Assembly: GCA_963854835.1 (NCBI GenBank)
Contig: OY978529.1
Location: 34,530,055-34,594,054, forward strand
Length of the DNA stretch: 64,000 nt
From: Megamerina dolium
Lineage: Eukaryota; Arthropoda; Insecta; Diptera; Megamerinidae
Direction: 5' to 3'
Part shown: piece after piece, positions 1,790 to 62,548 of the stretch
Position numbering within the stretch: position 1 is the stretch's first letter
How the letters are laid out: every line of letters begins with the position of its first letter
Position numbers and translations under genes: made by a program
Notes under the pieces: generated by a model
Told to the model about the DNA's origin: nothing
The model's input: the letters and a program-made list of their open reading frames with translations, nothing else
Databases searched by the model: none

Positions 1790-2405
1790 GCAGAACATCT
1801 TTTAGCGAGATGTCCGAGCAATGCAACATTCAGTTCAGCATATGGTAGCCAGGGCACAGGGACATACTAGGGATGAATACCGCGGACGAGCTAGCAAACA
1901 AGAGTGCAACATTGTAAACTCTTTCTGACGAGGGGAGTATAGGCATTCCGATGACATCGTGTAACTTCTTCTAACCTCGGACGCATTACAGAAAATGAAT
2001 GTCAGATGGAAGTTGAAATACTCGTGTGTAACTACCCGATCAATCTGAGCCTAAAACGAACAAAAGACCTAATTGCGCTTAACAGACATGCGATTAGTAT
2101 GCTGGTGGGAATTATTACGGAGCATTGCTTGATACGGATGCATGCAAGTAGGCTAGGTCATCACGGCACTTGCCTACTGCCGAAGCTGCAATGACGAGGA
2201 AGAACTGGAGTCCATAACTCATCTCCTATATGAGTGTCCGGCCTTGAATTGCCGAAGATTGACTCACCTGGGCAGCCACTTCATACACGACCTCAACGAG
2301 CTGCAGTTTAGGTTGGTTCCTAAGAAAAATAGGGTTACCCACCTGCGGCATCACAACGGGCCTTACTTGTCCGAAGTGAGTCCGCACAATCGGGCAGTCG
2401 CCGGG
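1790..2405 (+). mobile_element. LINE relic (RNase H + C-terminal Cys motif)
   Basis: Translation in shifting frames shows the end of a retrotransposon RNase H domain (PGHRDILGMNTADELANKSA at about 1,847-1,905). A C-terminal region follows, with a cysteine/histidine cluster of the kind that ends such LINE proteins (CRSC, then HLLYECPALNCRR near 2,180-2,255). The frame is broken several times. The 3' end (GGCATCACAACGGGCC at about 2,348) corresponds to the same position in the better-preserved copy at 20.9-21.8 kb. This is a dead, 5'-truncated copy of an I/LOA-like LINE (RNase H present); the clade is inferred. Confidence 0.7.
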
Positions 2406-5400: not shown

Positions 5401-5749
5401 GGCTATAAAAATCAATTTGTGGCTATAAAATGAGCTTATTTTTTCAAGTTCTACAATATTATCAATCAAATTTCAATGAGTTTTATATCGAAAACTTATT
5501 TTTGTGTGAGTTGTCGAAATTATTCGTCATAGGTGAAAAATATTTTGCTGCAAATTATTTGTATTGCAAGAAATTCCAATTAGACATACAATAAAGATAA
5601 GAAATAAATATATAAATATGTGGCACTTATGCCACTTTGGCCCAGCTTTTCTTTTAATACTTTTTTGACATTTTTTGTGTTATATTCTATAAAAATTTGT
5701 TTCTAGTCTAATCGTTTAATATGTTGTTCCTAAGAAATTCCAACATGCT

Positions 5750-6880
5750 TCCAGTGAAGATGTGATTTGCTCTTTTTCGGCGTCCACTATATTGATTTGT
5801 GTGGTTGGTGTCAGCCATTCGTTCCAGAGGCTTCGATAGTCATGGAATTTTTGTCGAAATACTGTACTATTAAATTTTGTTGAAAATGTGTAATTCTCTT
5901 AAGAATTCTTTTCAAGTCTCTTAGATTTGCAGAGCTCCCTAGAAAATGTAATGGATGTTCTTTAAAGTGAAGCAGTTTCCGATTCCATAAAACGCTATAG
6001 TAGTTATCAAACCTGGTAAGGATTGACACCGCAACAATTGTTGCTTGGTTTTGTCATCCAAACTCGAAAGATTGCTACAGATCGCTAATTTTATTCAGTG
6101 ATGAGGCTCATTTTTGGCTCAACGGGTATGTGAACAAACAAGATTGTCGGATTTGGTATGTGGTACTTATAAGCACCGAAGGGCTCTTTGGCCGAGTTTC
6201 TCTTCCATTACTGTTGTGTGTGTTAAAATTTTGGATAGTGTTAGAAGGGACCTACTTATTTTAGCCGGTTCCGAACTGCAGAACTCTTGCGACATCACTT
6301 TTTCTGACACCATCTACAAAATCTTACTGTTTGGTGCGGCTTATGGGATGGTAGCATCATTGGTCCATACTTCTTTAAAAACGAGGCAGGCAACAATGAA
6401 CCCATCAATGGTGATCTCTACAGAGCCATGATAACATACTATTTGACTCCACATTTGCGTGGGGTGAAAGTGGAAGATATGTGGTTCCAGCAAGATGGTG
6501 CTATATGACATACATCGAACATAACAATAGATTTATCGAAGGAAATATTTGACGACAATATAATCTTTCGAAATGGACCTGTGAACTATCCTGAAGGATG
6601 TTGCGATTTAATGCCTCTGGACAATTTTTTGTGGGAAGGATATGTGAAAGGGCTAGTTTATGCTGATAAATCAGTAACTTTGGATGAATTGCAAGTCAAC
6701 ATTTAGCGAAACATTGCCGGGATAAGGCCTCAATTGCTTGAAAAAGTAACCGAAAATTCGGTTTCCTGATTACGCCATGTTCAAGCCAGCCGTGGCGGCC
6801 ATATGCTTGAAACAAGGCCAATTTTTAGTTCAGAATGTAATACATTTTGTATATATTTTTCACCCTTAAAAAACACCCCG
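5750..6880 (+). mobile_element. DD41D mariner relic interrupted by a SINE
   Basis: Fragments in order: FILFSDEAHFWLNGYVNKQD (first catalytic Asp, about 6,090-6,150); after the SINE, LTVWCGLWDGSIIGPYFFKN (6,320-6,380); MWFQQDGA (second Asp, about 6,480-6,505); and DLMPLDNFLW (third Asp). My count gives 41 residues between the second and third Asp, the rosa-type spacing. The C-terminus ends QASRGGHMLE near 6,815, and the right end carries TTAAAAAACACCCC near 6,876. Frameshifts and stops make it inactive. The 5' third (5,750-6,060) is barely recognisable and no left terminal repeat was found. Confidence 0.75.
6156..6308 (-). mobile_element. tRNA-derived SINE, 3' part only
   Basis: Reverse-oriented SINE body and tail (TATGTGGTACTTATAAGC, then TTTGGCCGAG, GTTGTGTGTGTTAAAATTTT, GCCGGTTCCGAA). 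It sits precisely between two halves of the mariner relic, replacing about 20 codons. The tRNA-like head is absent. Confidence 0.8.
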
Positions 6881-7967: not shown

Positions 7968-10900
7968 ATGGAGCTGACTACAGATACCACCTTTATACCG
8001 GATCTCCCAAAAGGACCACTATGTATATACCGCAAGAGAGCGAATTTTGACTGGAAGCGTTTGAGGTTGATTTTCGAAAAAGAACAGGCATTACGCATTA
8101 AGGTCGGTAGTACTCATATACATATACAATCAGATTTGAAATGAAACTTATACATTTCGGATTCTTCTTTTGCAGTATAAAGTTTGGAAGCTACTTGAGA
8201 ATGATCCACTATTTTCCAAATCGAAGACACAACTACCCAGTGACGAACACAAGCGTATCTGTGCAATGCAAATGAATCGGATGGCACATTTGGATTTGGT
8301 TTCGCCAGAAATTGAACAGAAATCATTTTGTGAAAAAACCAAATATTTGATGAACATTAACGAGGCATTGCACACGTATTGTCCCAGTCTGTCGGTAAAG
8401 ATTGCCCTCGGTGTTGGCCTTTTCAATAATGCCATACGCGCTATGGGTACAGAGCGTCATGTCAAGTATTACAAGGCCGCCTGGAATCGTGAGATAGTCA
8501 CATGTCTGGCAATTACCGAAGTGGCACATGGTAGCAATACGAAAAGTGTACGTACAACAGCGACATATGATCCAGCGTCACAGGAGTTCATCATTTCAAC
8601 ACCAGATTTTGAGGCGGCCAAATGTTGGGTCGGTAATCTTGGTAAGACGGCGACAATTGCTATGACTTTTGCCAATCTATATACGGCCGATGGTGAGAAT
8701 CATGGTCTACATGGTTTCATCATACCGATACGCGATCCGAATACGCTAGAAACGTATCCCGGCGTACTGGTCGGTGACATCGGAGAGAAAATCGGTTTGA
8801 ATGGCATCGACAATGGTTTTGTAATGTTCAAAAATTATCGCATACCACGTGAGAATCTCTTAAATCGAACGGGTGATGTAACACCCGAAGGTGTGTACGA
8901 AAGTGTATTCAGTGAACCGGGTAAAGTTTTGGGTGCCGCTTTGGAATCGTTCTCAGCGGGTCGTATTGGCATTATGCAAGAGTCTGTGAATACGCTTGCA
9001 GTAGCGGCGGTAATTGCTGTCCGCTATGCGGCGCTCAGGAAGCAATTCGGTCAGGAACGTAATGGACCCGAAATGGCAATCATCGAATATCAGTTGCATG
9101 TAAGTGTTGATGGGTGATCGGTCACTATACTTTTGCGGAGCTTTGTTTTTTCGAAAAAAAAAGAAATGGAATTAAGTCCCGGACAATCTGGGTCGCATCA
9201 TTTATACAGGCCGTCTAAAGAAATTATATGTCAGACGGACTAGAGTAGTCACGCTTTATGGATTTTTTTTAAAAAATGTGCTATTGAGTCTCGATCAATT
9301 CGGGACGCATCGAACACATAGCCCCACAAAAAAGAAAATAGAATATCCGACCGACCAGATTAGTTACGCTATATGGATTTTGTGTTTATTAATCTGAATC
9401 TAGGATTTTCTGCATCACCCTCAAGCATCTGCCTAATCTCAAAAAACAGAGTTTTTAGCTAATATTACAGGCTTTTTTGAGGTTAGAAAGAAAACTAGGG
9501 CGACGGCGGAAAATTCCACCACATATTCAAGTTTAGTCCATAGAATATGACTACTTTGGTCCATTGGTCATTCAAATATTTTTCTGTGGGGCTGTGTAGT
9601 TGGTGCGACTCGGGTTGATCGGGACTCAATAGCATTTTTTTCCGAAAAAATTAAGTTCGGTTTGTGTCCGCTACAATTTTTCTTGTGTGTTTGCGCTATT
9701 GAGCTTTGGCTTTCACTGGATATTTATATACATTTTTTCTTCCATTACAGCAATGGCGAATATTTCCTTATTTGGCTGCTGCTTGTGTACTCAAAATTGC
9801 TGTAGTCGAATTGACAAATACCTATCTCGAGATCATTGAACGATCACAGGCGGATTCGAATGGTTTTGAATTGTTGGTAAGTTTGCAAATGGAGGAAATG
9901 CAATATTGCACACACTCACAAGCCATAATCATTACAAGTAGTGCTATGTTATTAATCGTGTAAACAAAACATCCTTTTAATCAAAATATTGATTAATCAA
10001 TTATTCGATTAATTGAAATTTGGATTAATCATAATGCGAATTATTCGATTAGTCAGAATCGCAACTAGAGCGGTGACATGTATGACTGACCGCTATTAAT
10101 TTCTTCTTTTTCACATCTCCTCCAAATATACCTACCTCCTATACCCACTTCTTAAGGCGACTCCCATACAAAATTTACGTAAAAACATATGAAAATTGGT
10201 AAATGACCGCAGCAATCACCTTTAAACCGGTGAATTGTACGAGTGACCCCCATTCAACTTTTTCTCCTCAACCTGTTCTCCAAATAAACATACTCCCTAC
10301 CTCCGCCCCTTAAGCGGGCTCTCATATATTATATAAAATGAACGTAAAACATCTGAAAATCGACAAATAATCCCATAACTGAAAACGAATCATCCCGTGA
10401 GGGACGTTCATTAAATTTTCCTCCTCAACATTTTCTCCGAACATATGTACCCATTATATCCACCCCTTAAGGGAACTCCTATGACTCCAAAATGATCGAA
10501 AAAATCAATGGATTCCCAGGAATCGCCCCTAGAGCGATGAAACGTATGACTGACTTATCGGTTTTTCTTCTTCAACGTTTACTCCAGACTTAACACCTAT
10601 CTTCACCCATTAAGGGGACTCCCTTACAAAATCACCAAAAAAACATGTGAAAATCGACAAATAACCCTAGGAATTGCTCTCAGAGCGGCAAAATGTATTA
10701 CCGACTATCATTAAATTTTCCTCCTCAATATTTCTTTTTAACATACTAAGGGGCTGCCCGAAAAAATTCATGCGCCAAGTAACACTAATACACTATATCT
10801 CTCTCGTTTGCTTTCAAATTTAGACACAAATTGTCTCTGAAATTCATGCAGTGATATCATCATCCAAACCGATGATTACATGGACGGCACGTGATGCCAT

Positions 10901-11781
10901 ACAAGAGGCACGTGAAGCTTGCGGTGGCCATGGCTACTTGAAGGCTTCTAGATTGGGTGATTTACGCAACGATCATGATCCCAGTTGTACGTACGAAGGT
11001 GACAATAATGTATTGGGTCAGCAAGCTTCCAATTGGTTGTTGCGTCAATGGAAGGATGGCGTGGAGAGTCCAGTGGGTACGGCCAATTTTATACGTAATC
11101 GTGAAGAAATACTAAGAAAAACCTATGAGCAGGTATTGCAAACGTATTCGTTCGAGTCGCTGGAATGTAAGTTGTTAGTTGGAGAGAAAATTCTTCATTT
11201 AATTGATTTCCTTTCCCTTTTCAGTTGTTCTTCATTGTTACGAATGGATGCTGTGCTACCTGCTGGATACCACGACGAAGCGTATTTCACAAGCAATTGA
11301 TGCAGGCACACATCGTTTCGATGCACGTAACAATGCACAAGTTTATGGGGCACGTGAACTATCCATTGCCTATGCGGAGTATTTTGCATTGAGATGCTTC
11401 GTCGAACGTTTTCGACGACCTGATGTCATCGATGAATATGCCAGTGTCTTGAGTACGGTGTTTGGCATTTATTCGATGTGGTGTTTGGATCGACACATGA
11501 CTACATTCTATATTGGTGGCTTTGTGAGTAAATCCAATTTTGGCGAACGTGTACGAACACATCTGCTACAGCAATGTGCAGCCTTGAAGGATTCCGCCGT
11601 ATCGGTGGCGGATGCCTTAGCACCACCCGATTTTGCATTAAATTCAATTATTGCCAAATCAGATGGTCAGCTTTATGAGAATTTACAAAATGAATTTACA
11701 ACAAGTCAAGGCGCATTCGAGCGACCGGCATGGTGGAGAGATGTTATAATACCGAAACAGATGAAAAAATCAAAACTTTAG
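7968..11781 (+). CDS. Peroxisomal acyl-CoA oxidase, ACOX3-like
   Basis: Five coding exons join in frame: 7,968-8,102; 8,176-9,099; 9,751-9,876; 10,824-11,166; 11,225-11,781. They encode 694 residues, the usual size for this family. Acyl-CoA oxidases carry out the first, FAD-dependent step of peroxisomal beta-oxidation, making a trans-2-enoyl-CoA and hydrogen peroxide. Visible landmarks are the FAD/substrate motif TEVAHGSN (about residues 159-166), the CGGHGYL block, and CTYEGDNNVL, whose Glu (about 453) aligns with the catalytic base. The last three residues are SKL, a type 1 peroxisomal import signal. The DHDPSCTYEGDNNVL block fits the ACOX3/pristanoyl-CoA oxidase branch better than ACOX1 (inference from memory). 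All donor and acceptor sites are GT/AG and no stop interrupts the joined frame, so the gene looks intact. Introns 2 and 3 hold a fold-back repeat and a tandem repeat. The start codon follows a spliced leader. Confidence 0.95.
9170..9645. repeat. Fold-back repeat in oxidase intron 2
   Basis: GCTATTGAGTCTCGATCAAT at about 9,280 and the following TCGGGACGCATC, ACATAGCCCCACA pair with the reverse complement of 9,580-9,640 (TGTGGGGCTGTGTAG, GTGCGACTCGGG, TTGATCGGGACTCAATAGCA). The arms are about 58 bp. A related direct copy of the left arm starts near 9,172 (ATTAAGTCCCGGACAATCTG). No coding capacity. It could be a small MITE or the remains of tandem repeats that flipped. Confidence 0.6.
10060..10770. 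repeat. Tandem repeat array (~140-160 bp) in oxidase intron 3
   Basis: Landmarks recur in order: a CTTAAG-like box followed by GACTCCCATAC-like sequence, AAACAT-TGAAAATCGACAAATA, a GAGCG box, and CATTAAATTTTCCTCCTCAA. The CTTAAG-like box lies at 10,151, 10,310, 10,466, 10,609 and 10,745, giving spacings of 159, 156, 143 and 136. The copies are diverged. The same family recurs at 24.56-25.16, 25.87-25.93, 35.93-36.11 and 54.83-55.24 kb. Confidence 0.8.
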
Positions 11782-14940: not shown

Positions 14941-14953
14941 TATTTCATTAGTT

Positions 14954-15276
14954 GGGAACCGTAGCTCAGTGGTTAGTGCGTTGGTCTTCTGATCTGTAGG
15001 TTGTGGCTTCAATCCCAGGCTGTTGGGGAACTTTAATATCGAAAAGAATTTCCTTTGGAACGGTACCCACGTGTCGGCAAGCAATTGGCAATTATGAAAG
15101 ATCTTTGTGACAAAGCTCAGAAAAAGTGATATCACAAGGGTACTGCCATTCGGAACAGGCTAATATAAGTATGGTCCATTCAAATACTGTCCAAAAATTT
15201 ACCACACACACAACAGTACTAAAAGAAAAGTTCTGTTGAAGGGCCCTTTGGGACGTATTAGTGCCACCTATAAGGT
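14954..15276 (+). mobile_element. tRNA-derived SINE, near full length (tail A)
   Basis: The head has an A-box-like TAGCTCAGTGGTTAG (14,962) and a B-box-like GGCTTCAATCCC (15,005). The body contains CAAGCAATTGGCAATT, AAAGCTCAGAAAAAGTGAT and GGTACTGCCATTCGGAAC, and the tail ends AGTGCCACCTATAA. An internal segment (the GTAACAACTTGCCATGAAAAAG part) is missing. It lies between two mariner pieces. Confidence 0.85.
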
Positions 15277-18140: not shown

Positions 18141-18500
18141 TATGTTATGCTATTGTGTCTACCCTCTCCGAAAGAGGACACACTTAGGCCAGAAAGGCCC
18201 ATTGGGATGCCACTGAGCTTCTCCTCCAATAATGTTGTGCGTGGTAAATTTGGACAGCATTAGAAGGTACCTTCTTATATTCGCCGGTTCCGAATGCCAG
18301 AACCCTTGTGACATCATTTTTACTTAGTTTTATCACATACGATAGTTCTTTTCAGAAGCTTTTTCATGGCAAATTGTTACTGCCGGAAAAATTGCCAATT
18401 CTTGCTGACAGGTGGGTAATGTTCGAAAGAAAAATCTTTTCAATAGTAAAATTTTGTTATACTTCAGCCGGGGATTGAAGCCACGACCTCCAGATATAAT
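18140..18500 (-). mobile_element. tRNA-derived SINE, tail B subfamily
   Basis: Reverse-oriented. It starts with the B tail (TTATGTTATGCTATTGTGTC, then GAGGACACACTTAGGCCAGA and GGATGCCAC). It continues through the shared body (AATGTTGTGCG, CGCCGGTTCCGAATGCCAGA, GCTTTTTCATGGCAAA, GACAGGTGGGTA) to the B-box side of the head (CAGCCGGGGATTGAAGCC at 18,467). The A-box end is missing. Confidence 0.85.
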
Positions 18501-20929: not shown

Positions 20930-21790
20930 TAATTGGTGGTGTCTACTCTGAGGTGTTGGGCGACCAATTATCCTTCAGCTTGACGGATTAATGAAGTGGA
21001 TTCCAGGCTGAAGTTTTGGCCAAAAAAGAAGACCTCGCAGTCGTTAGGAGCTGTGCTCTAACAATAAATGACATCTATATTTACTCGGATAGTCAAGAGG
21101 CTCTGAGATCTCTCCAATTAGTAAGGCATTCATCAAAGACAGTGATCGAATGTCACGAGTTACTAAGCGAACTTGCCATACATCCCCTTTGGTTTTCCGG
21201 GCATAGAAATATTGAGGGTAATTGCAAGATGGATGAATTAGCCAGGCAGGGCAGAACTTTACCACTCCAACCGAATAGGGTTTCGGTGCCGATACCGTCG
21301 TCAACTTGCAAATTTTTTATAGATAGGTACACCATCGATGTTGCTGACAAACGTTGGCGACGGATCGCAAATTCTCCAACCAATAGGTTAACTTGGCCGG
21401 AAAGGAGCTTAAGTCGGACTAAGCTGCTGGTAAAATTCAATAGGCTGGTTACTAGAAGGACAATCGGAGTTCCAACAGGTTATTGTAGGAGCTGCCAAGA
21501 AAGAAAGGAGAAAGAATCGGTAGAACATCTTCTGTGTGGGTGTTTGGCTCTGTGCAAGAGAACGTTTAACACGCTCGGAATCGATTCTCTTGACAGTATT
21601 GTCACAAATCGCTAACATAAAATTAACAAATATAATATTGTTTATCAAATCGTCAGCATGGTTTAAGGAGGACCCAGTAGGGTAAGGACTAGTTACCGCG
21701 GTATCACAATGGGCTATAACTGGCCTAAATGCGTCATATGACAGCGACATTACCTACCTTATATTTTTTCAAAATAATTCACTTTAGTCA
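20930..21790 (+). mobile_element. LINE fragment with RNase H domain (I/LOA-like)
   Basis: An almost continuous frame (20,940-21,615) encodes the RNase H domain of a non-LTR retrotransposon. It shows FQAEVLA (around the catalytic Glu), YSDSQEALRSL (catalytic Asp) and FSGHRNIEGNCKMDELARQG (His and final Asp). A C-terminal zinc-finger-like block follows (CRSCQERKEKESVEHLLCGC). Frame loss occurs near 21,005 and at the end. The 3' untranslated part contains GCGGTATCACAATGGGC at about 21,696. Polymerase and endonuclease domains are missing, so it is a 5'-truncated insertion. Confidence 0.85.
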
Positions 21791-22224: not shown

Positions 22225-22535
22225 TGAATTATGTAGCTCACTTGACTTGACCTTCTGTGCGTGTGTCCATAGGTTGTGAGTTCTATCCTCGGCCGAGGCA
22301 ACTTTAATATAAAAAAAAGTGTTTTTCCTCTTAGCCAGCAATTATTGTGGCAGTAACAATTCTAAAAAAAATTCTGTCACTAAGCTCAGGAAAAATGATG
22401 CCGCACGGGTTCTCTCATACGAAACCGACCAGTATATGTAGGTCCTTTCTAATTCTGTTCAAATTTAGCTCCTATAATAGTACTGAAAGAGAAGCTCGGC
22501 CAAAGAGTCCTTCGGCACTTCATTCAATTCATGTG
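22225..22535 (+). mobile_element. tRNA-derived SINE, degraded copy
   Basis: TATGTAGCTCACTTGAC (A-box-like), GTTGTGAGTTCTATCC (B-box-like), GGCAGTAACAATTCTAAAA, AAGCTCAGGAAAAATGATG, AGTACTGAAAGAGAAGCTCG and GGCCAAAGAGTCCTTCGGCA follow the order of the intact copies. Tail A type. Confidence 0.75.
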
Positions 22536-23012: not shown

Positions 23013-23345
23013 GGTGGATGCCATAGCTCAGTGGTTAGTGTGTTGGCCGTCTGATCTGTAGGTCGTGGGTTCAATCCCCGGCAGAAGTAGAACAAATTTA
23101 ATATCGAAAAGATTTTTCTTTCGAACGGTACCCACCTGTCGGCACGCAATTGGTAATTCTTCCGTCAGTAACAATTTGCCATGGAAAAGCTTCTAAAAAT
23201 ACTCTGTGACAAAGCTCAGAAAAAGTCTAAAATAAGTAGATCCCTTCTCAGACTGTCCAAAAATTTAGAACGCACAACACTTATGGAAGAGAAGCTCAGC
23301 CAAAGAGCCCTTCGGGCGTTATAAGTGCCACATATTAATTAATTT
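23013..23345 (+). mobile_element. tRNA-derived SINE, full length (tail A)
   Basis: Intact head: GCCATAGCTCAGTGGTTAGT with GGGTTCAATCCCCGGC about 38 bases later. The body includes AATATCGAAAAGATTTTTCT, GGTACCCACCTGTCGGC and AAGCTCAGAAAAAGT. The tail is GGGCGTTATAAGTGCCACAT followed by an AT-rich run. A short piece of the body (GTGATGTCACAAGGGTTCTG) is deleted near 23,228. Confidence 0.9.
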
Positions 23346-24306: not shown

Positions 24307-24542
24307 TTGCCGTAGCTCAGTGGTTAGTGTGTTGACCTTCTAATCTGTAGGTCGTGGTTCAATCCCCGGCTGATGCATAACAAATTTCATATCGAAAAGA
24401 TTTTTCTTTCGAACGGTACCCACCTGTCGGCAAGCAATTGGCAATTCTTCTGACAGTACAACTTGCCATGAAAAAGCTTCTAAAAGAACTTTGTGACAAA
24501 GCCCAGAAAAAGTGATGTCGTCACAAGGGTTTTCTTTGAACA
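24307..24542 (+). mobile_element. tRNA-derived SINE, 3' truncated
   Basis: Head GCCGTAGCTCAGTGGTTAGT (24,309) with GTGGTTCAATCCCCGGC (24,353). The body is complete up to AAAGTGATGTCGTCACAAGG, after which the sequence passes into the 150-bp tandem repeat. The tail is missing. Confidence 0.9.
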
Positions 24543-38400: not shown

Positions 38401-38408
38401 TATGTGTG

Positions 38409-38575
38409 TAGCAATTATAGGTCCAAAAGGGCTCGTTGGACGAGATACTTTCCAGTACTGTTGTGTGTTTTGAATTTTGGACAACATTAGAAAGGTCCTA
38501 ATTAGATTGGCCAGTTCCGAAAGGTACATCCTTTGTGGCATCACTTTTTCCAATAGAGTTCTCACAATCCGTACG
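38409..38575 (-). mobile_element. SINE 3' part
   Basis: Reverse body and tail: AAAGGGCTCGTTGGACGAG, ACTGTTGTGTGTTTTGAATT, AGATTGGCCAGTTCCGAAAG and GGCATCACTTTTTC. The head is missing. Confidence 0.75.
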
Positions 38576-55240: not shown

Positions 55241-55249
55241 AAAATAAAT

Positions 55250-55582
55250 AAATAGTTGGCACTTATAAGCCCCAAAGGGATCTTTCTTCGAGCTTCTCTT
55301 CCATTACTGTTCTGTGTGTTAAATTTTGGATAGTATTAGAAGGGACATAGTTATTTTAGTCGGTTCCGAATGGCAGAACTCTTGTGACATCGCTTTTTCT
55401 GAGTTTTGTCACAGAGTTTTTTTTAGAAGCTTATCCATGGCAAATATTTACTGCTAGAAGAATTGACAATTGCATGCCGAAAGTTGGGTACGGTTCGAAA
55501 GAAAAATCTGTTTGATATTAAATTTTTTATACTTCAGCCGAAGATTGAACCCATGATCTAGAGATCAGAAGGCACTAACCCG
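55250..55582 (-). mobile_element. tRNA-derived SINE, near full length (tail A)
   Basis: Reverse-oriented. AAATAAATAAATAGTTGGCA is the tail in reverse, followed by the whole body (CAAAGGGATC, TAGTCGGTTCCGAATGGCAG, TTAGAAGCTTATCCATGGCA) and the head's B-box side (CAGCCGAAGATTGAACCCAT at 55,537). The A-box end is cut. Confidence 0.88.
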
Positions 55583-55639: not shown

Positions 55640-58350
55640 CTACTGTTGCTAGGTATCGACACATATTATAGACCTTGGTAAATTTTAATGAGTCGAACAA
55701 ACGCTCAGCTCAGAGAAAGTACGAATTTGTAAAAAAAAAAAAACACAGTAGTCATAAAATAGGAGGAAGAACATGAGAGACTTGGTATAAGATATCAATG
55801 TGCGTGAGGACAGGGGCTATGACTCGATCGTATTCAGAAAAGAGTACCACTTGGCTTGGGGGGTATCAAAATTAAAATTCTACTGAACGCCATGAAACAC
55901 GAGTTAACTTCAGGCGTGATTCCACCAAAGTAAGAAGGTGGACTACCAAAAAGTCCGCTGAGTATGCATTTAAAGTTAAAGCTTCCATCACTCGAAGCAA
56001 ACAGAACATTGACGGGTTTTGTGGCTTTTCTTCGGTCTTAAGGTCGTTCTCGCCTAAGATGATTGCTCATCCGCAACTCATTTTATATACCTTTAAGAAT
56101 TGGATGGGCTTAGAAACTTGCTCTAAATATGTTTGCGTAAATATGTATATTCCCATAGAACTTCATGCTACTATTTATAAACAACAGGTGCAGAACAATT
56201 GTGATGATGACGTTTACATTGTTTTCGCTGGATTACCCCATAACAGCAAGCCGGACAGACTAATTGTCTTTAATCAGTTATAAATAATCTTTCTGCTAAG
56301 ATACTAATGATGATGTTAGTATTGTTGTTTATATATTGTATCTTTATTAAATTTTGAGCGCAAAAAAAAAAAAGTGTTTGTCTTATTTCGATTTTGATCG
56401 TTTTTGTTTTTTTTTTTTTGCTTTTGGGAATTTTTATTCTCATCATTAATCAAACCAGTTGTAGACAACAAACGGACATATTCTAAGTATAAGTATGTAA
56501 TTATATTGAAATGATTTTGACAATAATTATCATGCAAATTACATCATGTTCATTCGAAGAGAAACATCAAAATAGTAATATACACATGTTATCACCGATT
56601 TCGACTAGCTATATTCATTGAATTGTGATAGAAGGCAATTGAAAAGGCTGATGCAAAAGTTTCGAGCCGCCAATGGTGGACCCTTCTGGGATTACTTTTA
56701 TTCTTCGAATATATATTTTTATTTGGAAAGATAAGAAGCTACTTATGTCAGGTGAATATCGTTTGAAACAAAATTTTAAACAGTTGTCTATGGATGGTCC
56801 CACCAACTGAACTTCGCCGAATCTAGCTCAGATCAGAAACTTTTGGTATCTAAACATTGCAGGTAGTAGGCACATTGATATTCCTGATTGAGATACAATT
56901 GTATCTGGTTATAAATAACAACAAGTATAATATTTATGCGACTACCCTCATTGTAAAGTATTTTATCTGCGAATTGAATTTATGCAATTAACATAAACGA
57001 CAATATAACCATTGGCATTGTTCTTGAAATTGTATACGTACAAGTTTTTGTTCGCTATTGTTAATAGATTGTGTCGGAAATGAGGCAAAAAAGTAGCAAA
57101 ATTATTTATTTTTAATGATCATCTTTTCCTTGCTAATATTTTACATGATAATTATAGACTTTTGTATTTTTGTTTATAATTGATATACAAATATTTTGAC
57201 ATTTAAAATGATATAATTATATTGAAATGATGAGTTTTGATTGTGATTGTTTTACTTGAAACTCTTATTGCTTTATCAATACTTTCTGAAATTCGGAAAT
57301 CTTCGAACTACTTCTAGTGCACATCTTATGTTGGGTACTTAAATCAGGTCTGATAAAGTTTAGGAAACCGAAAGGCATTGCAGTGCAGTGAGCTTTAGTT
57401 TCCCTAAGACCAAGGGGTTCCAGTAAAAGTTTCATAGATTTTTCATCTAGTTCCTAAAGAACGAGAGAATGGAAGATCAAGGACTTTCCAAGAGTGATTG
57501 TAGATCAATGGAGTCCATTATGACTAATTTACTTGAGCTCTTTTTCCATCGATCCCACAAAGATCCACAATCTCGACTCAGAGTTACCCTAATTATAACA
57601 GAAGATGAATGTGTAGAGTATCAAAACGTGCTGTCACATGTTGAGAGGGAAAACTCCTTGAGATGTGTTACCTACTTCATTTGGACAATTTGTGCGTTAT
57701 CTGTCAGATGAGAGAATCTTCAAACGGAAGGACACTAATTACTACAATCTTCCGATTGAAGATGTGCCGTCAATCATCACGATTTCTATTGCTCACGTGG
57801 GACAAACTAATATTGACTCTGTAATAAAAAAAATTCTTTCGATTATTTAAAGTTTGCTGATCCGTCTGTACTTTGAAGAGTTGTGGTACAATTGTCGAGA
57901 GCTTCAGATGCTTTGTGATCATGAATGATTTAAAAATCTAACTAAAGAACTAAGGAAAGGTTTATACAACTGTTCTCTGATAGGATGCATCTTCAAGCTG
58001 CTCCTTAATTTTGGGTGCCGCCATGTTCCATTTTTACTGAGGATAGAACAAACCCAAAGGATTCAACTAAAATTTATGTTAATCATCGATGCTCGGATTC
58101 CGGCTTCTTGTATTAAATATTGTACGAAAGCTCGATGGTTTTTTAACAAAAAAAAAAAAAAAAAAAATTCTTGGAAATGGGGTCGTCGAGGTGGGAGATT
58201 TTTATGCACTATATTCTAAGAGTTAAGAGTATAATTGAGTTCATGCTCTCATTTTCAACGTTAATAGGAAGAAGAAGCAGATATTAAGAGACATATTTGT
58301 TTTCTATCTAAAGAATGAGTGAGTTTGTAAATGGGCAAAATCGAATGCCC
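55640..58350. other. Mostly unassigned; one open pair of frames
   Basis: No element recognised. Between 57,469 and 57,850 two overlapping plus frames could be one sequence with a frameshift near 57,665 (the first ends VERENSLR, the second continues PTSFGQFVRYLSDERIFKRK). The composition is protein-like but I cannot name a family. Elsewhere the sequence is AT-rich with poly-A/T tracts. Confidence 0.35.
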
Positions 58351-58352
58351 AA

Positions 58353-58568
58353 TGCCCGGCTGAAGCATAACAAAATCTAATATCGAAAAGATTTTTCCTT
58401 TGAACGGTACCCACCTGTCGGCAAGAATTGGTAAATTTTCTGGCAGTAACAATTTACCAAAAATGCTTCTTAAAAGAGCTCAATGACAAACCTAAGTTAA
58501 AGTGATGTCACAAGAGTTCTGCCGTTTGGAACCGGCTAATATATTATAAGTAGGTAAGTTAGGTAAGT
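58353..58568 (+). mobile_element. Outer SINE, 5' part (tail B copy)
   Basis: Begins at the end of the head (GCCCGGCTGAAGCATAACAA) and runs through the body to CCGGCTAATATATTATAAGT. It is cut by another SINE and resumes at 58,939. Confidence 0.88.
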
Positions 58569-58928
58569 GGGTGCCGTAGCTCAGTGGTTAGTGTGTTCGC
58601 CTTCTGATCTGTAGGTCGTGGGTTCAATCCCCGGCTGATGCATAACAAATTTAATATCGAAAAGATTTTTCTTTCGAATGGTACCCACCTGTCGGCAAGC
58701 AATTGGCAATTCTTCCGACAGTAACAACTTGCCATGAAAAAGCTTCTTAAAGAACTCTGTGACAAAGCTCAGAAAAAGTGATGTCACAAGTGTTCTGCCG
58801 TTCGGAACCGGCTAAAATAAGTAGGTCCCTTCTAATACTGTCCAAATTTAAGACGCACAACAGTAATGGAAGAGAAGCTCGGCCAATGAGTCCTTTGGGG
58901 CTTTAAGTGCCACATATTTATTTATTTT
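58569..58928 (+). mobile_element. Inner SINE, full length with target duplication
   Basis: A 360-bp copy with an intact head: GCCGTAGCTCAGTGGTTAGT (58,573) and GTGGGTTCAATCCCCGGC. The body is complete and the tail is GGCTTTAAGTGCCACATATT plus TTATTTATTTTTT. A 10-bp duplication TTAGGTAAGT flanks it (58,559-58,568 and 58,929-58,938). The head's anticodon arm (CTTCTGATC) resembles an arginine tRNA with a TCT anticodon (inference). It is the best reference copy in the window. Confidence 0.93.
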
Positions 58929-58938
58929 TTAGGTAAGT

Positions 58939-59070
58939 TATAATGCTGTCCAAATTTAACTTGCACAACAGTATTGGAAGAGAAGCTCGGTGGTATCACA
59001 ATGGCCTTTTTGGCCTAAGCGTGTCCTCCCAGAGAGAGAGGGCAGCCACAATAACCTAATCTAACTTAAC
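58939..59070 (+). mobile_element. Outer SINE, 3' part with tail B
   Basis: TATAATGCTGTCCAAATTTA, GCACAACAGTATTGGAAGAG and AAGCTCGG continue the interrupted copy. Tail B follows: TGGTATCACAATGGCCTTTT, TGGCCTAAGCGTGTCCTCC and an AACCTAATCTAACTTAACC end. Confidence 0.85.
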
Positions 59071-61927: not shown

Positions 61928-62055
61928 GCTTAGGTTAGGTTATGTTATTGCGGCTGCCTTCGGGGAGGACACACTTAGGCCAGAAAAAACATTTGTGGTA
62001 CCACCGACCATTTCTTCTAGTACTTTTGTGCATGTTAAATTTTGAACAGTACAAC
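61928..62055 (-). mobile_element. SINE tail B fragment
   Basis: Reverse tail B (GCTTAGGTTAGGTTATGTTA, TTGCGGCTGCCTTCGGGG, AGGACACACTTAGGCCAGAA, GGTACCACC) with a short piece of body (TTTTGTGCATGTTAAATTTT). Confidence 0.8.
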
Positions 62056-62067
62056 AGTATACATATT

Positions 62068-62372
62068 GGGTGCCGTAGCTCAGTGGTAGCTCAGTGTGTT
62101 GGCCTTCTGATTTGCAGGTCGTAGTTCAATTCCGGGCTGATGCATAACAAATTTAATATCGAAAAGATTTTTCTTTCGAACGGAAGCAATTGGCAATTCT
62201 TCCGTCAGTAACAACTTGCCATGAAAAAGCTTCTAAAAGAACTCTTTGACAAAGCTAAACCGAAACCGGCTAAAATGGAAGATGGAATGGAATGGAATGG
62301 AAGAGAAGCTCGGCCAATGAGCTCTTGGGGGCTTTAAGTGCCGCATATTTATTTATTTTTTTTTTTTTTTTA
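62068..62372 (+). mobile_element. tRNA-derived SINE, tail A
   Basis: The head starts GGGTGCCGTAGCTCAGTGG, with a small internal duplication (TAGCTCAGTG twice), and has GTAGTTCAATTCCGGGC. The body has deletions (GGTACCCACCTGTCGGC and the AAAAAGTGATGTCACAAG segment are missing). The tail is GGCTTTAAGTGCCGCATATT plus a TTATTTATTTT run. Confidence 0.88.
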
Positions 62373-62382
62373 CATATTTTAC

Positions 62383-62548
62383 AAGGGACCTACTTATATT
62401 ACCCGGTTTCGAATGGCATCAATCTTGTGACATCATTATTTCTGAGTTTTGTCACAGAAAAATCTTTTCGATATTAAAATTGTGCTTCAGCTGGGATTGA
62501 ACACACAACATCCGGATCCGGAAGGGCAACGCGCTAAATTCTGAGTCA
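62383..62548 (-). mobile_element. SINE copy with internal deletion
   Basis: GGGACCTACTTATATTACCC, GGTTTCGAATGGCATCAATC and TTCTGAGTTTTGTCACAGAA pass straight to AAATCTTTTCGATATTAAAA and the head side (CAGCTGGGATTGAACACACA, ATCCGGATCCGGAAG). The middle of the body is gone. Confidence 0.85.

Follow-up and report, generated by a model that had tools for sequence, protein, structure and literature searches.

How did one SINE come to lie inside another with a different 3' tail at 58.35-59.07 kb of the window (the whole 64,000-nucleotide stretch analyzed), and what moved each of them? We consider it likely that both belong to a tRNA-like, Pol III-type SINE family of two lineages, that SINE-B moved by way of a tail shared with LINEs and SINE-A by way of another LINE, and that a recent SINE-A sits here in an older SINE-B.

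The nest is real: a SINE-A inserted in an older SINE-B. The inner SINE-A (58567-58930, + strand) is full length at 364 bp; of 6,211 first-look candidates in the genome, 40 were scored, and these are 97 to 100% identical to it. As the earlier note had reported, it is flanked by a perfect 10-bp target duplication, TTAGGTAAGT, at 58559-58568 and 58929-58938 (+), beyond which the outer element resumes. The final two bases of the 5' copy are also the first two of the SINE consensus, and an extra 11-bp match between 58551-58561 and 58930-58940 is present because the 5' target site is a small tandem. A shared word of at least 10 bases between two random stretches of the window has a probability of ∼0.003. 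The outer SINE-B occupies 58350-58559 (+), where 58350-58543 matches positions 59 to 252 of the B consensus at 92.8%, so that the match begins at position 59 and the copy is 5' truncated. It picks up again past the 3' copy of TTAGGTAAGT with the remaining body and tail B, ending in CCTAA-like repeats at ∼59070 (58939-59070, +; 58930-59059 matches consensus positions 255 to 384 at 91.6%). A chance rearrangement or an assembly join could in principle mimic such an arrangement, in a region dense in SINEs and at a target site with a small tandem, but the inner SINE-A is full length and identical to other copies, duplications flank both of its ends, and the outer SINE-B continues after the second one; a join without insertion is hardly credible.

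A second A-in-B nest spans 61930-62545, with the outer SINE-B antisense. Its SINE-A (62067-62361, +) lies between the tail B (61930-62051, -) and the head and body pieces (62379-62545, -) of the outer copy and is flanked by the duplication TACATATT at 62060-62067 and 62371-62378, which at 8 bp (chance of ∼0.022) is weak if taken alone. Both clear nests are insertions of A into B, and none of B into A was noticed in this small sample, which was gathered around A and B hits. The earlier note had read the order of the subfamilies from the first nest; that step does not follow, as a single nest orders one insertion pair only and old tail-A copies exist.

Such old copies are found in the window itself. 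By consensus match, together with the tree for the first and third and a duplication search for the second, old SINE-A copies lie at 14953-15271 (+), which is basal in the tree, at 23014-23344 (+), which has a 10-bp duplication, ATTCCAGGAG, and at 55243-55573 (-). Consensus matches further place a truncated SINE-A at 6157-6307 (-), SINE-A pieces at 22366-22515 (+) and 38407-38550 (-), a SINE-B at 18173-18495 (-), and a piece with an A-like body and no tail at 24308-24531 (+). Altogether, 19 SINE pieces were merged by hand (58350 with 58930; 61933 with 62379 and 62456; 62067 with 62296) into 15 insertions, and a weak tail-A remnant at 5603-5667 brings the count to 16, close to the ∼17 copies or pieces estimated earlier. 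That remnant had also been a candidate LINE end and was rejected as such, being by eye a decayed tail A. Other features of the window were seen in passing. Frames resembling a mariner-type transposase by eye lie at 6004-6706 (+), with the SINE-A piece 6157-6307 inside them; two short pieces of these frames had no match in Pfam. An acyl-CoA oxidase-like gene is present in two pieces, 8140-9114 and 10824-11297 (+), both with ACOX_C_alpha1 above the cut-off and the former also with Acyl-CoA_dh_M.

The genome searched comprises 500.5 Mb in 8 contigs, six of them 63 to 123 Mb long. Exact searches with 22-mers, which underestimate old copies, found 7,720 matches for tail A and 1,107 for tail B, with none in the reversed control for either. 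At 364 bp for A and ∼386 bp for B, the elements are short, dispersed, and present in many copies, and the SINE family is young and very numerous. The best of 40 scored SINE-B places (of 711 candidates) is 98% identical to a B consensus built from 12 copies, errors in which could slightly lower that figure. It is the present burst that is recent, with A having 100% identical copies and the best of the 40 scored B places reaching 98%.

Target duplications in other genomic copies had been named beforehand as a test of the family. They were sought in 57 pieces that reach the tail end, 48 in fetched loci and 9 in the window, including one LINE end (L112) and a few parts of interrupted copies; L001 and L009, which overlap the window and were also left out of the consensus matching, and copies with short flanks were excluded. 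Duplications of at least 10 bp occurred in 18 of the 57, compared with a mean of 0.145 and a maximum of 2 in 200 rounds of shuffling the 3' flanks between pieces that have the same tail, and those of at least 8 bp occurred in 23 (shuffled mean of 1.285, maximum of 5). By class, duplications of at least 8 bp were found in 10 of 14 full-length A, 0 of 8 truncated A, 8 of 16 full-length B, and 5 of 19 truncated B copies. The truncated SINE-B copies with duplications are consistent with target-primed reverse transcription. With these duplications, the dispersed copies, and the 22-mer counts, the earlier description of a SINE family with two 3' tails is borne out. Some irregular copies were also encountered: L113 and L116 have an internal deletion with the tail hairpin gone, the head of L037 is apparently fused to position 254 by an internal deletion, and four SINE-A pieces with alternating orientations are clustered at L003:1529-2499.

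The earlier note had given both tails the same body, and this did not hold. The A and B body consensus sequences differ at 26 diagnostic positions (K2P of 0.093, 49 copies). The tree comprised 20 tail-A and 29 tail-B copies (49 in total), each with 150 or more body bases, leaving out 2 of 51 copies with fewer body bases and L001 and L009, which overlap the window. All 20 tail-A copies form one group, with a support of 0.74 including the basal copy at 14953 and 0.89 without it, and tail type tracks body group in all 49 copies. Copies near the boundary are mixed at diagnostic sites (A-like/B-like: L018, 6/10; L023, 6/13; the window copy at 14953, 7/6). Tail-A copies diverge from the young A consensus by a K2P of up to 0.16, so A cannot simply be regarded as the younger of the two. 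These comparisons suggest two long-lived sister SINE lineages, distinct in both body and 3' tail, for which one tail change would be the simplest history.

Both lineages appear to begin with a tRNA-like head. The earlier note had seen Pol III A- and B-box-like motifs there, and they were recovered: against box consensus sequences, the head carries a box A-like motif with 11 of 12 matches and a box B-like motif with 9 of 11 (58577-58588 and 58621-58631, +, in the inner SINE-A). Heads were compared with 20 tRNAs. The 62-base B head had 47 matches to Arg-TCT, 46 to Lys-TTT, and 45 each to Thr-AGT and Ile-AAT, the A head had 45 each to Arg-TCT and Ile-AAT, and shuffled heads scored far below real ones. 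A search of Rfam with the head returned no match at E values up to 1, and ARAGORN listed no tRNA for the window and, with its threshold lowered, "tRNA-???". The head is likely to be tRNA-like. The proposed resemblance to Arg-TCT stood insofar as this tRNA was the best of the 20 compared, but the margin was narrow (47 versus 46 of 62) and the A head was tied with Ile-AAT; an Arg-TCT origin is weakly indicated.

Tail B also occurs without a SINE. A tail-end search of the fetched DNA found places without a SINE body, among them position 21700 of the window and L011, and at both, the tail match follows a frame with an RNase H-like region and a CCHC motif. In the window, this LINE C-terminal frame lies at 20995-21615 (+; CCHC by eye; Pfam RNase_H at an E value of 0.0059 and 17.2 bits, below the cut-off of 25.8), and the stretch of LINE 3' UTR matching tail B lies at 21700-21735 (+; 83% over 36 bases). 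Protein homologues were 5 unnamed, uninformative hits. A CCHC-type LINE C-terminal fragment, 60% identical to LINE group F2 over 43 residues and followed by a decayed tail motif, lies at 2157-2400 (+). The LINE partners of tail B may belong to the LOA clade; LOA-clade LINEs likewise have an RNase H-like region, a CCHC-bearing C terminus ending in Trp-Phe, and a short 3' UTR.

Genome searches with the LINE 3' end and the 206-amino-acid LINE protein found many relatives, and 38 short LINE 3' regions were fetched, 15 by DNA match (tail included) and 23 by protein match. Among those fetched by protein similarity, the start of the motif was present in 19 of 23 (weak and off-place in L098); L097, L102, and L105 had no tail motif and L109 had its start alone, and all four were left out of the motif-match run. 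The LINE tails fell into groups F1a (15), F1b (3), F1c (2), F2 (8), and F3 (1), with 5 of 34 ends ungrouped (L090, L098, L099, L100, and L111). Tail B aligned to F1a, F1b, F1c, F2, and F3 with scores of 54, 53, 39, 48, and 66, compared with shuffled maxima of 24 to 25; the real scores were reached by none of 1,000 shuffles per group. The matches to F2 and F3 extend into the CCTAACC terminus. SINE bodies scored 14 to 18 against the LINE ends, which is the level of shuffles. Furthermore, Trp-Phe codons followed 25 to 55 bases on by the LINE hairpin had 311 matches in the genome and none in the control. The same genome pattern with a nearly exact SINE-B hairpin had 0 matches, and no LINE with the exact SINE-B loop was found. 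Two candidates, L039 and L069, in which tail B follows a reverse-transcriptase hit, were rejected as LINE 3' ends, being part of full-length SINE-B copies.

Tail B is common to SINE-B and LINEs of the same genome, the feature by which a stringent LINE/SINE pair is recognized, and it was probably copied from a larger element, a LINE, that probably moves SINE-B. By sequence comparison, the motif would be an old LINE property because it is found in five diverged LINE groups right after the C-terminal codons and with the same predicted shape. These same features speak against the tail having passed from the SINE to the LINEs, or having been taken by both from a third element, in which case it would not name the driver; we regard either course as improbable.

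Several of the LINEs met in these searches have unusual arrangements. Four LINE matches with 797-amino-acid frames, at intervals of 8155, 8170, and 8170 bases, make C6:33021579-33046571 (genome G000) a likely tandem LINE array; L105, which is part of it, has a frame that reads on without the usual LINE 3' end. Reverse-transcriptase matches are spaced 6357 and 6357 bases apart at C4:41472540-41485733 and 7198 and 7202 bases apart at C1:43530282-43545173, both possible tandem LINE arrays. Two F3 LINE 3' ends lie inverted within ∼420 bases of each other (L112:375-448, +, and 721-794, -). In L074, RVT_1 (142 bits) and RNase_H (40.2 bits) are in separate frames, by eye possibly of two LINEs.

As RNA, the tails of SINE-B, F1a, F1b, F1c, F2, and F3 are all predicted to fold into an outer stem enclosing two hairpins, placed before the terminal repeat. 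Fold z scores were -1.93 for F1a, -1.12 for F1b (equalled by 28 of 200 shuffles), -2.85 for F1c, -3.14 for F2, -4.56 for F3, and -3.30 for SINE-B. In an alignment of 10 hand-picked tails, namely two consensus sequences and eight copies, 92.2% of cells were paired (a level reached by 0 of 500 shuffles), two-sided changes were present in 7 of 23 pairs (1 of 500), and the covariation score was 0.175 (0 of 500); further pair types were within the range of shuffles (388 of 500). Sliding the structure by 1 to 3 columns left 33.7 to 48.5% paired and 0 to 4 two-sided pairs, the 4 at a slide of +2. Of the pairs with two-sided changes, 3 belong to the outer stem and 4 to the second hairpin; the central hairpin, GGGCC/GGCCT, shows no such change. 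At the second hairpin, F1a has GTCATATGAC, F2 has runs of C and G, and both F3 and SINE-B have CTCTC/GAGAG; the modeled shape of this hairpin is kept while its sequence changes. On these predictions, SINE-B and the five LINE groups would share a three-way-junction fold with two-sided pair changes.

For tail A the picture is different. Its predicted fold, taken from the identical copy L002, is one hairpin (58888-58903) inside a short outer stem (together 58881-58911, +), with a z score of -1.11 and 29 of 200 shuffles as good; tail-A folds were equalled by 29, 63, and 19 of 200 shuffles, and the older tail A at 23291-23345 has a different predicted fold. Against the five LINE groups, tail A scored 12 to 18, levels reached by 39 to 847 of 1,000 shuffles, and no tail shared by SINE-A and a LINE was found among the LINE ends sampled. 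SINE-A is probably driven by a LINE absent from these sampled ends. Two sets of candidate places were set aside. The 11 places listed with tail A and Trp-Phe codons were mostly SINE sequence and none was recognized as a LINE, and of 42 places selected because the tail-A hairpin lacked its usual SINE edge, the 4 fetched were all SINE-A copies with changes or deletions.

Two explanations of tail A have to be weighed. The first, to which we give an even chance, is that an unrelated LINE drives it or that recognition of its AT-rich end is relaxed. The perfect SINE-A copies imply a recently active driver, and tail A is without a match to the sampled LINE ends; against this, no such LINE was found, and the places inspected read as SINE-like only (4 of 42 fetched). 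The second is that tail A arose by reduction from the LINE-derived tail that B carries, with the core hairpin and TAAGTG retained but the second hairpin and CCTAA end gone, and that the LINE group of tail B still mobilizes it. The sequences of A and B agree as far as GAAGAGAAGCTCGG, after which each has, by eye, a hairpin and AAGTG, and upstream of the hairpin the F1b LINE ends show a resemblance to GAGAAGC..GGTGG. However, homology of A and B past GAAGAGAAGCTCGG could not be demonstrated, and the shuffle-level scores of tail A against the five LINE groups count against such descent, which we rate below an even chance and as the less probable of the two.

The preferred mechanism, with separate LINE drivers for A and B, can be outlined by analogy. 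We infer that Pol III transcribes the SINEs, that a LINE reverse transcriptase recognizes the tail, and that insertion is target primed, because LINE protein binds the tail stem-loop in known pairs (PMC4176376, available text) and also because insect SINEs with a common 5' part and different 3' ends are described (PMC3272025 and PMC8010984, available text). The SINE-B RNA would end in an outer stem around two hairpins and then CCTAA repeats, an end common to the RNase H-like, CCHC-bearing LINEs, and a LINE reverse transcriptase would most likely bind it, as in known stringent LINE/SINE pairs. Target-primed reverse transcription at a nicked site would then yield target duplications and 5'-truncated copies. 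The SINE-A RNA would end in just one predicted hairpin and an ATTT-rich stretch, with another LINE as its probable driver; SINE-A would be the lineage with identical, recent copies, one of which landed in the older SINE-B at 58.35-59.07 kb. We tentatively suggest, at somewhat less than even confidence, that the LINE driver changed once, from a now quiet B, with RNase H LINEs and a three-way-junction tail, to a spreading A with another tail and another LINE, and that the junction is an architecture undescribed for LINE/SINE pairs in the literature found.

A SINE with a LINE-shared tail is already a familiar kind of element. In searches of open-licence literature, none of the papers listed had a title or abstract describing either this SINE or any SINE paired with a LOA-type LINE. 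SINEs are reported to be scarce in most dipterans, at <1% of transposable-element content (PMC6327564, available text), and 206 SINEs are given for Bactrocera oleae, 0.39% in the table (PMC7106766, available text). If the host is a fly, a SINE family whose exact tail recurs thousands of times is conspicuous there. Identical SINE-A copies would serve as insertion markers, and the naturally occurring paired changes in the tail of SINE-B and its LINEs could be used to ask what the LINE enzyme reads.

Among known systems, the nearest to SINE-B are the pairs of UnaL2 (eel) and ZfL2-1/ZfL2-2 (zebrafish), in which SINE and LINE share a stem-loop 3' tail and binding of the LINE protein to that stem-loop has been shown; the available text names stringent pairs in the CR1, Tad1, and RTE clades (PMC4176376). 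SINE-B differs from the UnaL2 and ZfL2 pairs in its predicted outer stem with two hairpins, its CCTAA repeats, and its RNase H-like LINEs, and the case for it is made here from sequence. HaSE1, HaSE2, and HaSE3 of Helicoverpa armigera, with the LINE HaRTE1, are alike in having a common 5' part and differing 3' ends, one of which matches a LINE, but HaRTE1 is RTE-type by name, the other HaSE2 tail resembles a mariner-like element, and no junction fold is described in the available text (PMC3272025). The lepidopteran PxSE1-5 likewise have tails that match a LINE and that are exchangeable with those of other LINEs, and they differ from SINE-A and SINE-B in belonging to other insects and having other sequences (PMC8010984, available text).
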